A stretch of 64,000 bases of DNA from Salinibacterium sp. ZJ450 (GTDB lineage: Bacteria; Actinomycetota; Actinomycetes; Actinomycetales; Microbacteriaceae). The stretch's first letter is position 1. Each line of letters starts with the position of its first letter. Below, in pieces: positions 48,835 through 53,738 of the stretch. Location: the NCBI RefSeq assembly GCF_011751885.2, contig NZ_CP061771.1, positions 1,736,001 to 1,800,000 of the forward strand, read 5' to 3'. The translations under genes and the position numbers were made by a program. The notes beneath the pieces are model-generated. The model did no database searches and had not been told where the DNA came from. It saw nothing but the letters and a program-made list of their open reading frames with translations.

Positions 48835-48909
48835 TGGTGGGCGATACTGGGATCGAACCAGTGACCTCTTCCGTGTCAGGGAAGCGCGCTACCGCTGCGC
48901 CAATCGCCC
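48835..48909 (-). tRNA. tRNA-Val (anticodon GAC)
   Basis: The cloverleaf is complete: acceptor GGGCGAT/ATCGCCC, anticodon stem CTTCC/GGAAG with loop CTGACAC (anticodon GAC), and T-loop GGTTCGATCC. A 3' CCA is encoded. It is the last of three tRNA genes read leftward and is followed by the terminator. Confidence 0.97.
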
Positions 48910-48933
48910 AAGACTGAAATTCTCATTGCAGCT

Positions 48934-49007
48934 TGGAGGTGGATACGGGATTCGAACCCGTGTATACGGCTTTGCAGGCCGCTGCCTCGCCTCTCGGCCA
49001 ATCCACC
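48934..49007 (-). tRNA. tRNA-Cys (anticodon GCA)
   Basis: Acceptor GGTGGAT/ATCCACC, anticodon loop CTGCAAA (anticodon GCA) on stem CGGC/GCCG, T-loop GGTTCGAATCC, and an encoded 3' CCA (TCCA end). It lies 24 bases upstream of tRNA-Val on the same strand. Confidence 0.97.
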
Positions 49008-49063
49008 GTGTTTGGGTTCACCACCAAATGAAATGAACCGGCCTTTCGACCGATTCATATTCG

Positions 49064-49135
49064 AGCGGATGACGAGATTCGAACTCGCGACCCTCACCTT
49101 GGCAAGGTGATGCGCTACCACTGCGCCACATCCGC
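49064..49135 (-). tRNA. tRNA-Gly (anticodon GCC)
   Basis: Acceptor GCGGATG/CATCCGC, anticodon stem CACCT-type with loop TTGCCAA (anticodon GCC), T-loop GTTCGAATC. No CCA is encoded (CGA follows the discriminator T), so CCA must be added enzymatically. It is the first tRNA of the leftward transcript. Confidence 0.97.
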
Positions 49136-49166
49136 ATTTTCGCTGTGCATTTCTGCGTGCTTGAAA

Positions 49167-49195
49167 ACAATAGCGGATGATTTGCCGAGTGCCAA
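49167..49195 (-). promoter_or_regulatory. Promoter of the tRNA-Gly/Cys/Val cluster
   Basis: On the minus strand TTGGCA (49195-49190) and TATTGT (49172-49167) are separated by exactly 17 bases. Transcription would start about 25 bases before tRNA-Gly. It is the best-formed sigma-70-type promoter in the window. Confidence 0.8.
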
Positions 49196-49273
49196 AACGA
49201 GCGAACGCGTGTCGTGCGAGAGCCGCTGGGGTGTCAGTATCGCGGCAAGTTTTATGGCAGGATTATCTGGCGC

Positions 49274-49346
49274 GGGCGATTGGCGCAGTTGGTAGCGCGC
49301 TTCCTTCACACGGAAGAGGTCATCGGTTCGAGTCCGGTATCGCCCA
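49274..49346 (+). tRNA. tRNA-Val (anticodon CAC)
   Basis: Acceptor GGGCGAT/ATCGCCC, anticodon stem CTTCC/GGAAG with loop TTCACAC (anticodon CAC), T-loop GGTTCGAGTCC. No CCA encoded. The body is nearly identical to the GAC isoacceptor on the other strand. An AT-richer TTTTATGG segment at about 49253-49260 may be its -10. Confidence 0.97.
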
Positions 49347-49409
49347 CTTCATCTAGTCATACGACACCCGTTGTCGCCCCGGAACCTCGGGTGATTCCTG
49401 ACCGATGAC

Positions 49410-49739
49410 ATGCGCCAGGTGCTCGGCATCCTGAATCTGTCGCTGATCGTGGGCGTGATTGCGAATGTGCTGTTCGTGATCGTGGATCGGGTTTGGCTGA
49501 AGGCGCTTGGCGACCTCATCACCGTGAGCATCGGGGTGGTTGTGCTGGCGCGCCTCTGGCAGGTGTTCCCATTCGATTTCTCAGGTTCGACGATCGACTG
49601 GGCGCTGGTGCTGCGGGTCGTGCTCGCGGTGTCCATCGGCGCGGCGCTGATTGCCATCATCGTGCAGCTCGTGGTGCTGGTGCGGAGCCTGTTCGGTCAC
49701 GACCGGCGCGACGCCAGCCGCACCACCCCTCGCCCCTGA
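49410..49739 (+). CDS. Small multi-pass membrane protein, unknown function
   Basis: The 109-residue protein has three hydrophobic helices (about residues 6-24, 33-48 and 65-92) and a basic C-terminus HDRRDASRTTPRP. Codon third positions are strongly GC, as in its neighbours, supporting a real gene. No family recognised. No clear ribosome binding site precedes the ATG at 49410. Its last 159 bases run antisense to the end of the Amt-like gene. Confidence 0.7.
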   Translation: MRQVLGILNLSLIVGVIANVLFVIVDRVWLKALGDLITVSIGVVVLARLWQVFPFDFSGSTIDWALVLRVVLAVSIGAALIAIIVQLVVLVRSLFGHDRRDASRTTPRP

Positions 49740-50741
49740 CAGCAGCTGGCGGGTTTTCAGCAACCCCGCGAGCGCGAAGCACACCCCGATGGACCAGGCC
49801 ACGGCGAGGACAGTGGCGCCCAGTTGCGCCACGAGCTGGGTCACACCGCCGGTGTGCACGAGCCCGGTTCCGTCGGTGAACAGGCCGAGCATCACGGTTC
49901 CCGTGGCGCCCCCGACCAGCAGCACCGCGGCCACCGCGGCCGGCCGCTCCCCCACCTTTTTCAGTGCGGATCCATAGAACACCGCAGACAAGGCGCCGGC
50001 GGCCACGCCGATCAGCAGCGACCACTGCGCGGTTACCCAGGCGCTGCTCGCCAGGGCACTGCTGAGGCCTGCCAGTATCCCGTACGCAGCGTCCCTCCGC
50101 ATGGTCTTGCTCGCACCGATGAGGCGGGTGACGACCCAGCCGGCGCACCCGGTGGCTGCCGACAGTGTGGCGGAGAGGATGATCCGGGGCGTCACCTCGT
50201 CGATCATCGTCTCCGCAGCGATGCATGCCGCGAGCAGGCCGAGCGCCGCGAGAGCACTGCCCTTCGCCAGTCGCCCGCGCTCCGCGGTAGGCACCGGAAC
50301 CGCTGGGGTCCGGGCGGCGCGCACCCGCGACCAGGCGTATGCGCCGGCGCCGACCGGAACGGCGAACACCAGTGCGCCGGCGAAATCCAAGGCGCCGAGC
50401 GTGGCGACGAGCCCCTCGGAGTCGAACGTCGCGAACGCCAGCGGCAGTTGCACCACGGCGACAACCAGCAGCGCATACACAGTCCCGCGCGACGATGCGG
50501 CGGAATCGGCGGAATCGGCCGGTCGGGCCAGGAGCAGAACGGATGCCGCGGCCATCGCCCCTAACAACACCGTCAGAGGCAGCGGCCAGTCGCGCACCAG
50601 CCCGAGCGTCACTCCGGCGCCGCCGCCGAGTGCCCCCAGCATCAGCAGGCGGCGAGGCAGCGACATCCGCCCGTCTCTTATCCATAGCAGCCCCGGAACC
50701 ACTGCCAGCGACAGCAGACCGAACCCCACGACGACAAACAC
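49581..50741 (-). CDS. Degenerate ammonium-transporter-like membrane protein lacking pore histidines
   Basis: The 386-residue hydrophobic protein follows the Amt plan seen in the true Amt next door. DFAGALVFAVPVGAGAYAW aligns with the Amt block DYAGGTAVHINAGAAALAL, and SLLIGVAAGALSAVFYGSAL aligns with ALVLGVVAGAVCALAVELKF. Both pore histidines are gone: the VHI position is FAV, and the IHLVGG position is VLLVGG. The N-terminal third is also shortened. A polar tail of about 50 residues is antisense to the small membrane-protein gene. GTG start at 50739-50741 after GGGGGA. It is unlikely to carry ammonium and may be regulatory, or decaying. Confidence 0.8.
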   Translation of the reverse strand: MFVVVGFGLLSLAVVPGLLWIRDGRMSLPRRLLMLGALGGGAGVTLGLVRDWPLPLTVLLGAMAAASVLLLARPADSADSAASSRGTVYALLVVAVVQLPLAFATFDSEGLVATLGALDFAGALVFAVPVGAGAYAWSRVRAARTPAVPVPTAERGRLAKGSALAALGLLAACIAAETMIDEVTPRIILSATLSAATGCAGWVVTRLIGASKTMRRDAAYGILAGLSSALASSAWVTAQWSLLIGVAAGALSAVFYGSALKKVGERPAAVAAVLLVGGATGTVMLGLFTDGTGLVHTGGVTQLVAQLGATVLAVAWSIGVCFALAGLLKTRQLLSGARGGAAGVAPVVTEQAPHQHHELHDDGNQRRADGHREHDPQHQRPVDRRT

Positions 50742-50829: not shown

Positions 50830-50857
50830 AGGGCGGCGTTCCGAAGAACGCCGCCCT
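50830..50857 (-). terminator. Hairpin terminator after amt
   Basis: AGGGCGGCGTTC and GAACGCCGCCCT are exact 12-base complements around a four-base loop, 36 bases after the amt stop. TTCGTGGTTT follows on the transcript. Confidence 0.88.
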
Positions 50858-50892: not shown

Positions 50893-52098
50893 CTAGCGGC
50901 CCTCGAGCGCGTAGCCCTCCTCGCCGTGCACGACGGTGTCGATGCCGGCGATCTCGTCTTCGTTCTTCACCCGGAAGCCGACCGTCTTCTCGATCGCGAA
51001 GCCGACGATGTAGGCGACGACGAAGGAGTAGATCAGCACGCCAAACGCGGCGATCGCCTGCACGGTCAGCTGGCCGAAGTCGCCGCCGGTGAACAGGCCG
51101 GTTTCGGTGGCGAAGAAGCCGAGGTACAGGGTTCCCATCAGGCCACCGACCAGGTGGATGCCGACCACGTCAAGCGAGTCGTCGAAGCCCAGCTTGAACT
51201 TGAGCTCTACCGCCAGGGCGCACACGGCACCGGCGACGACACCGAGCACCAGGGCCCAGCCCGGGGTCAGGTTGGCGCAGGCGGGGGTGATCGCGACGAG
51301 GCCGGCCACAGCGCCGGAGGCGGCTCCGACCGAGGTGGACTTGCCATCCTTGACCTTCTCGATAACCATCCAGCCGATGATCGCGGCAGCGGTGGCGCCC
51401 AGCGTGTTGACGACGATCAGGCCCACGTTCTGCAGGTCGTTCAGCCACTCCGCGCCGGCGTTGAAGCCGAACCAGCCGAACCAGAGAATCGAAGCGCCGA
51501 GCAGCACCAGCGGCACGTTGTGCGGCTTGTGCGCACCCTTCTGGAACACGGCACGCTTGCCGAGCACCAGCGACAGGGCGAGCGCTGCGGCGCCGGCGTT
51601 GATGTGCACCGCAGTACCACCGGCGTAGTCGATCACCGCCGGCAGGCCGAGGGTCTCGCCGAGGCTGAAGATCCAGCCGCCGCCCCAGACCCAAGCGGCC
51701 ACCGGGAAGTAGACCAGGGTTGCGAAGATCCCGGCGAAGATCATCCAGGAGCCGAACTTGGCCCGGTCGGCGATCGCGCCGGAGATCAACGCGACGGTGA
51801 TGATCGCGAAGGTTGCGCCGTAGGCGGCGCCGATCAGCGCCTCATTGTCGGCCGAGGCCAGACCGAAGTCCGAGAACGGGTTGCCGGAGAATGACCACAC
51901 CGAGTCGACCACCGACATGTTGGCGCCGTACAGAATCCACAGCACGCTGACGAGTCCGAGAGCGCCGAAGCTCATCATCATCATGCTGACGACGCTCTTG
52001 GCCTTCACCAGACCGCCGTAGAAGAAGGCGACGCCCGGTGTCATGAAGAGCACGAGAGCGGTGGCGGTGATCGCCCACGCGAGGTTGCCGGTATCCAT
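50893..52098 (-). CDS. amt: Ammonium transporter
   Basis: Amt conducts ammonium/ammonia across the membrane. The 401-residue protein has eleven helices. Key blocks are FMTPGVAFFYGGLVKAKSV, DYAGGTAVHINAGAAALAL with the first pore His, FGWFGFNAGAEW, GLVAITPACANL, and DVVGIHLVGGLMGTLYLG with the second. I chose the ATG at 52096-52098 (AGGAA upstream); a GTG five codons earlier is the alternative. No glnK or glnD follows, unlike many actinobacteria, so a PII partner would be encoded elsewhere. A GlnR-type box lies about 110 bases upstream. Confidence 0.97.
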   Translation of the reverse strand: MDTGNLAWAITATALVLFMTPGVAFFYGGLVKAKSVVSMMMMSFGALGLVSVLWILYGANMSVVDSVWSFSGNPFSDFGLASADNEALIGAAYGATFAIITVALISGAIADRAKFGSWMIFAGIFATLVYFPVAAWVWGGGWIFSLGETLGLPAVIDYAGGTAVHINAGAAALALSLVLGKRAVFQKGAHKPHNVPLVLLGASILWFGWFGFNAGAEWLNDLQNVGLIVVNTLGATAAAIIGWMVIEKVKDGKSTSVGAASGAVAGLVAITPACANLTPGWALVLGVVAGAVCALAVELKFKLGFDDSLDVVGIHLVGGLMGTLYLGFFATETGLFTGGDFGQLTVQAIAAFGVLIYSFVVAYIVGFAIEKTVGFRVKNEDEIAGIDTVVHGEEGYALEGR

Positions 52099-52208
52099 GT
52101 GAGTTCCTAACACTTCTGGGGTTGAGCAGGATGTGTCGTGACGAACGAGGCTCGTCTCGGGTACGAAGCCAGTGTGGAACTCGCATATTTCGGCTGCGCT
52201 GTCGCTGT

Positions 52209-52263: not shown

Positions 52264-53649
52264 CTAGTCGTTTTGGAAAACGTCCGGCACACCGTCGCGA
52301 TTCGTGTCCACCTGCTCGAGGCGGCGCTGGTTGCGGTAGTGCCGGTTGCGCCCGCCCAGCACGATGGCGGCGAGGCCCCCAGCGAGCAGCGAACCCGCGA
52401 GGATGGCGATCTTCGCGGTGTCGTCCAGCTCGCTGCCCAGCCCGAAGCTCAGCTCGCTGATCAGGAGAGAGACGGTGAAGCCGATTCCGCCCAGAATGCC
52501 AAGACCGAACACGTCGATCCAGGCGAGGCCTCGGGGCAGGGTGATCCCCGGCATGCGGGTGACCAGCCAGGTGGCCCCGGTGATGCCGATGGTCTTTCCC
52601 ACAATCAACGCCGCGATGATGCCGATCGCCACCGGGCTGCTGAGCGCGGCGCCGAGCGCCTGCCAGCCGCCGATGGCGACCCCGGCCGAGAAGAAGGCGA
52701 ACACCGGAACGGCGAACCCGGTGGACAGCGGCCGGATCCGGTGCTCGAGCACTTCGGCGAGGCCGGGCCGGCTGGCCTCGTCTGTGATACCGCGCGCCTC
52801 GGCCGCCGCGCGCACCGCCGGGCTACGTCGAACCGGGATGGTGAAGGCCAGCAGTACGCCGGCGACGGTGGCGTGCACGCCGGAGGAGTACATGAAGAAC
52901 CAGACCAGAAGCCCGATCGGCAGCAGCACCAGCCAGGCGGCGGTGGGTCGAACCAGGAAGAACCAGGTGAACTTCTGGGCGAGCAGCCCGAAGACGGCCA
53001 GGCCGAGGAACATCGCCAGCAGGTAGCCCGGCCGCACGCCGTCGGAGTAGAAGAAGGCGATGATCCCGATGCCGAGCAGATCATCGACCACGGCGAGAGT
53101 CAGCAGGAAGGTGCGCATCGCCGCGGGGAGGTGCGTGCCGATGACGGCGAGCACGGCGAGGGCGAACGCGATGTCGGTGGCGACGGGAATCGCCCACCCC
53201 CGCTGCACCTCGGGTGAGGACTGCAGGGTGATCAGCGCGTAGATCACGGCGGGCAGCGCCACGCCGCCCACGGCCGCCATCACCGGCATCAGCGCCTTTC
53301 GCGGGTCGCGCAGTTCACCGGCGACGAACTCCCGCTTCAGTTCCAGCCCGGCCAGGAAGAAGAACACCGCAAGCAGCCCGTCTGCGGCGAGGTGGCCGAC
53401 ACTGATGTGCCACTCGAAGTCGCCGAACGTCAGCCCCAGTTCGGTGTCGCGCAGCGTGAAATACCAGTCGGCGAGCGGCGAATTGGCCGCGATCAGCGCG
53501 GCTAGCGTGGCGATCAGCAGCAGGATGCCGCCGACGGTCTCCTTGCGCAGGATGTTCTCGATGCGCAGCGACTCTGCGAACCGATCCAGGCCGGGCGGCG
53601 GGGTGGGGCGATTTGCCGGGGTAGGTCGATCAGGCGGGGTGGTGGACAC
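52264..53649 (-). CDS. nhaA: Na+/H+ antiporter NhaA with C-terminal calcium-loop-like tail
   Basis: NhaA expels Na+ in exchange for protons. The 461-residue protein has about twelve membrane helices. The paired aspartates of ion binding are in [12 protein letters not shown], and [15 protein letters not shown] is also present. The cytoplasmic C-terminus ends [15 protein letters not shown], matching the DxNxDGxxD calcium-binding loop seen in dockerin and thrombospondin type 3 repeats, and unusual for NhaA. I chose GTG at 53647-53649, five bases after AGGAG; an ATG at 53685 falls inside a leader hairpin and lacks a ribosome binding site. Confidence 0.96.
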
Positions 53650-53738
53650 GGGAACTCCTGCAGGCAGCGCGAAGGGCGTACCCATGCCGGTTGCGGCATG
53701 GAGCCGACCAGACTTCCCGGCACTCCACGGTCAGCCTA
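53650..53738 (-). promoter_or_regulatory. Structured leader of nhaA, possible ion-responsive RNA
   Basis: TAGGCT (53738-53733) fits a -10 box, giving a leader of about 77 bases. The transcript carries GGAGT then CCGGGAAGTCTGGTCGGC, forming GCCG/CGGC with a purine-rich loop and flanking GGA/TCC pairing. A perfect 8-bp hairpin follows (53701-53694 with 53689-53682, loop CAAC), then the AGGAG site. The first element resembles leaders I associate with nhaA-type genes and reported nhaA RNA motifs; class membership and sodium sensing are not demonstrated. Confidence 0.55.

Follow-up and report, generated by a model that had tools for sequence, protein, structure and literature searches.

The gene next to amt in Salinibacterium sp. 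ZJ450 encodes an Amt paralog that has lost both pore histidines and belongs to one clade of downstream copies in the Microbacteriaceae, in which loss of these histidines is a recurrent trend rather than the defining trait. The paralog has probably ceased to function as an ordinary ammonium transporter. We tentatively favor, with less than even confidence, the reading that it is a degenerate Amt subunit or an Amt modulator, and not itself an Amt-type transporter, which would tune ammonium uptake.

The window, a 64,000-nt stretch of contig NZ_CP061771.1, contains the paralog 151 nt downstream of amt on the same strand (Table 1). These two are the only PF00909 genes in the genome (one contig, 3.83 Mb, 99.3% complete). 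The window amt scores 368 bits against PF00909 and 379 bits against TIGR00836, the latter above the subfamily cut-off. The last ~50 codons of the paralog ORF lie outside the conserved protein: most relatives stop shortly past the last helix, and in this tail pLDDT is <65 and the GC pattern across codon positions is odd. Most of the tail is antisense to a 109-aa ORF at 49410-49739 on the plus strand, which is membrane-like, has coding-like GC3, and has no homolog among the 40 loci read. Four tRNA genes (Val, Cys, and Gly on the minus strand, Val on the plus strand) cluster at 48835-49347, between thrS and the paralog. An NhaA gene at 52264-53685 (minus strand) is co-directional with amt in the window's genus; other genera carry a distant NhaA (~40% identity) at the same place on the opposite strand.

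Table 1. Positions of the paralog, amt, and associated features in the window
Feature	Position	Strand	Evidence or remark
Amt-like paralog ORF	49581-50741	-	GTG start at 50741, stop codon 49583-49581
Conserved core, residues 1-330, 11 predicted transmembrane helices	49752-50741	-	PF00909 match, family alignment, AlphaFold model, fold search
Non-conserved C-terminal tail, same ORF	49581-49751	-	Missing in relatives, low pLDDT, atypical GC by codon position
Ala127 codon; first pore histidine site (EcAmtB H168; neighboring Amt His170)	50361-50363	-	
Leu274 codon; second pore histidine site (EcAmtB H318; neighboring Amt His320)	49920-49922	-	
Asp119 codon, equivalent of EcAmtB D160	50385-50387	-	Invariant, 32/32 aligned relatives
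amt, intact: both histidines, Phe-gate F215, full cytosolic C-terminal region	50893-52113	-	Alignment to AmtB chains
GC-rich, terminator-like hairpin in the amt/paralog gap	50830-50857	-	The family's usual hairpin after amt

The paralog is a true Amt homolog, with a similarity beyond chance. It matches PF00909 with an E value of 1.3e-10 (41.1 bits, passing the curated cut-off of 23.2 bits) and TIGR00836 with an E value of 7e-18 (64.7 bits, below the subfamily cut-off of 343.3 bits), and BLASTP against the neighboring Amt returned an E value of 4e-9. In the alignment with this neighbor, the first pore site changes from DYAGGTAVHINAG in amt to DFAGALVFAVPVG in the paralog (His170 to Ala127), and the second changes from GIHLVGG to AVLLVGG (His320 to Leu274); the twin-His pore motif of the Amt subfamily is missing in the window paralog. 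These results bear out the original prediction of an Amt-like protein beside an intact amt, with both pore histidines lost. The Phe-gate position F215 is lost in the window paralog and in nearly all of its relatives, and the cytosolic C-terminal region of Amt, the part that contacts GlnK, is absent from every member of the family alignment. We detected no signaling domain in the paralog, PF00909 being its sole above-cut-off domain and its tail being non-conserved.

An AlphaFold2 model of the paralog (17 sequences) reached a pLDDT of 85.4 and a pTM of 0.83, with eleven long helices. When this model was searched with Foldseek, all 50 of the 50 matches at E ≤0.001 were Amt, Mep, or Rh proteins. 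By VIA-align, the model scored Z 37.8 over 327 residues against E. coli AmtB (1u77), Z 36.8 against the sensor Amt 6eu6, and Z 30.9 against 7uzq, the RhAG-RhCE-ankyrin structure, with the next folds after Amt/Rh at Z ~12. The model thus indicates that the paralog keeps the 11-helix Amt fold, and the structural comparison proposed earlier as a check gave a strong match. The N-terminal third is shorter, as had been noted, but because all 11 long helices are retained in the model, the shortening affects loops and not helices.

We searched 300 sampled Microbacteriaceae genomes with a profile from 15 relatives and then read 40 loci. Clear members were found in at least 34 genomes from 12 genera, and six less diverged copies (L076, L080, L097, L101, L103, and L104) from three further genera bring the total to 40; these counts are minimum values because weak members may go unrecognized among Amts. 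Most of the 300 genomes yielded no paralog, and many relatives have amt without it. A scan of genome contigs with the window protein as a single query gave no match; a profile scan with one subclade's alignment matched Glaciihabitans and Galbitalea. Across 297 genomes of the order, mostly from other families, no such paralog stood out and, beyond the family, the best matches resembled ordinary Amts in both score and length, in a sample where weak members would go unnoticed among Amts.

Wherever a locus contains amt, amt comes first and both genes lie on one strand; in 26 of the 34 genomes, the two are on the same strand with a gap of 34-229 nt. The conserved order is an AFG1-type ATPase, often an NhaA, amt, the paralog, and thrS. 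The paralog, with its neighboring genes in place, also occurs in two genomes that have no detectable amt (G138 and G236; 96% and 93% complete), and in four genomes of genus g82, amt is located elsewhere than the paralog. A hairpin is present in most amt-paralog gaps. Since genomes lacking the paralog have the same hairpin after amt, we rejected the idea that it is a special attenuator of the paralog.

A rooted 48-row tree (20 members, six less diverged copies, 18 Amts, and, as outgroup, four Amts belonging to other families in the order) grouped all 26 downstream copies into one clade with support of 100/99.9. As the copies form one clade, the simplest reading would be a single old tandem duplication within Microbacteriaceae, with the long branches of the tree calling for caution about a single origin. 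The rooted tree rejects a recent duplication of the adjacent amt. The paralog was originally described as a diverged tandem duplicate, and it is indeed a tandem Amt paralog, but the tree suggests an old one, family-wide and of single origin.

With regain excluded, mapping on the tree gave nine losses of the first histidine, a count that includes one Glu-bearing Amt copy, and six of the second; unordered parsimony gave four changes at the first and three at the second. Both histidines or one remain in the subclade around L066-L069, the second remains in genus g82, and neither is left in the window's own clade. Between genera, the pore residues vary among H, Q, S, A, L, M, and G. One of the less diverged tandem copies (L097:363-1520, in G023) has Gln at both pore histidine positions.

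The paralog evolves approximately five times faster than amt, with median distances scaled by AFG1 of 4.8x for the paralog and 0.95x for amt. Nei-Gojobori dN/dS is 0.11-0.46 in most paralog pairs and 0.05-0.14 in most amt pairs; it is 0.11-0.13 for the paralog in the genus whose amt lies elsewhere and 0.56 between the window paralog and its nearest relative, L084 (tail included), all rate and dN/dS figures being rough given saturation and GC bias. The core of the members has no internal stop down to an identity of ~20-30%. In the family alignment, D119, G221, G225, and G293 are invariant and E177, D181, and G298 near-invariant; by Amt topology, these positions would lie mostly in loops and helix ends on the periplasmic side, and several of the conserved positions are common to Amt. 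The proposed survey of orthologs and dN/dS thus revealed constraint (dN/dS <1 and open frames across 34 genomes and 12 genera), and the paralog is under purifying selection. As the relatives are intact and alike, we rejected a sequencing error or pseudogene.

No P-II protein was detected in the paralog's own genome or in 265 of the 300 Microbacteriaceae genomes searched; the search was positive in 13 of 14 known genomes used as a control. In three outgroup loci (L116, L117, and L124), glnK, identified by sequence, lies directly after amt, so that the paralog occupies the position held by glnK in the loci of other families. With P-II missing in 265/300 genomes anyway, its association with the paralog is uninformative, and because P-II loss is general across the family, the link between P-II absence and the paralog is only suggestive. 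In a further outgroup locus (L119), an ffh-like gene follows amt.

The missing histidines alone do not imply that the paralog is non-transporting, because AmtB twin-His variants can become channel-like or leaky and can pass potassium (PMC9040831). Yeast Mep2 double-His variants show no ammonium transport (PMC9040831), and the relation of lost histidines to conduction has been reviewed (PMC10433425). Under the reading we favor, the paralog would join Amt, either as an inactive or altered subunit of mixed trimers or as an assembly competitor, and this association would tune ammonium uptake in bacteria that mostly lack GlnK, with the terminator-like hairpin perhaps keeping the amount of paralog below that of Amt. 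Consistent with this are the position directly downstream of amt within conserved synteny, membership in a single clade with the Amt fold and repeated losses at the H168 and H318 equivalents, the absence of the cytosolic C-terminal region from all members, and intact frames with dN/dS of 0.11-0.56. P-II absence here and in most relatives, and the place of glnK in the three outgroup loci, fit as well. Within the genus that includes G138 and G236, AFG1-scaled paralog distances are 2.4-3.4 when an amt-less genome is involved versus 1.6 between the two amt-bearing members, which hints, from very few lineages, at the relaxed constraint expected where the partner is lacking. As a precedent, a rice AMT1;1 variant is reported to inhibit its AMT1 partners (PMC9129087). 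However, the two genomes with the paralog and no detectable amt make an obligatory mixed trimer, or an obligatory partner role, unlikely. Four genomes have amt elsewhere, most genomes have the hairpin between the two genes, amt occurs alone in many relatives, and the P-II connection is weakened by the generality of P-II loss. Because a few lineages keep the paralog without amt, any association with Amt would be facultative; the earlier suggestion of a regulator of Amt trimers is therefore possible, but not in an obligatory form.

The main rival is an independent homotrimeric channel of altered selectivity (an unselective cation leak, or a path for another amine, a neutral solute, or a gas) that needs no Amt, which we consider possible but on balance unlikely. 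It would explain retention in the two amt-less genomes and the low dN/dS where amt lies elsewhere, and both the channel-like AmtB variants and the subclade that retains both histidines agree with it. Yet the members have no conserved new pore motif; their pore residues drift by genus, unlike what a fixed new selectivity would leave, and the evolutionary rate is high. That rate, together with the dN/dS of 0.56 in the window's own genus, the many losses of pore residues, and the absence of the paralog from most of the 300 genomes, would instead fit a leftover under weak constraint that is almost dispensable and in slow decay. We regard such a leftover as improbable: the 34 open-frame copies in 12 genera, diverged to ~20-30% identity with no internal stop in the core, their dN/dS well below 1, and the four invariant residues disfavor the decaying copy proposed originally, although the fast rate does fit weak constraint. 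An ammonium sensor signaling to another protein is very improbable. Sensor Amts are known, and some came up in the fold search (6eu6; Sd-Amt1, 8qj3/8qj4), but the paralog has no signaling domain and no conserved C-terminal region, and the Phe gate is not conserved.

Compared with Amt/AmtB (PF00909, TIGR00836), the paralog shares the fold, its 11 helices, the D160 equivalent, several glycines, and common ancestry, but it has lost the pore histidines, the Phe gate, and the cytosolic C-terminal region and falls far below the TIGR00836 cut-off. RhD/RhCE have a degenerate pore. Found beside RhAG in the human erythrocyte (7uzq), they are likewise pore-degenerate paralogs next to a conducting relative of the same fold, and the Rh complex may be the nearest functional parallel. 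The paralog differs in being bacterial, of independent origin, and encoded in tandem; the mixed trimer is hypothetical here, and the bacterial protein can occur without a conducting partner (G138 and G236). It is distinctly doubtful, though conceivable, that bacteria that lost GlnK evolved, on a single occasion, a pore-degenerate Amt paralog at the site held by glnK in sister families, as a built-in inhibitory or tuning Amt subunit, a bacterial parallel to RhD/RhCE. The sensor Amts KsAmt5 and Sd-Amt1 carry signaling domains. They resemble the paralog in using the Amt fold for something other than bulk uptake, whereas the paralog lacks a signaling domain, the twin-His pair, and the Phe gate; KsAmt5 retains both the twin-His pair and the Phe gate (PMC10433425). 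Fungal Mep1/3 and engineered twin-His variants share a changed first histidine, but Mep1/3 have Glu there and transport, while the paralog has Ala and has lost the second histidine too. The second copy of a tandem amt pair in G225 (L102:5554-6834) is like Mep1/3 in carrying Glu at the first pore histidine.

A literature search, with subscription journals mostly outside its coverage, turned up no published account of a bacterial Amt paralog of this kind. The twin-His pair is regarded as an Amt signature, and this clade keeps the fold and the place of Amt while losing the pair repeatedly. With members that have both, one, or no histidines, the clade constitutes a natural mutagenesis series, and it could reveal non-transport roles of the Amt fold and how ammonium uptake is controlled without P-II.
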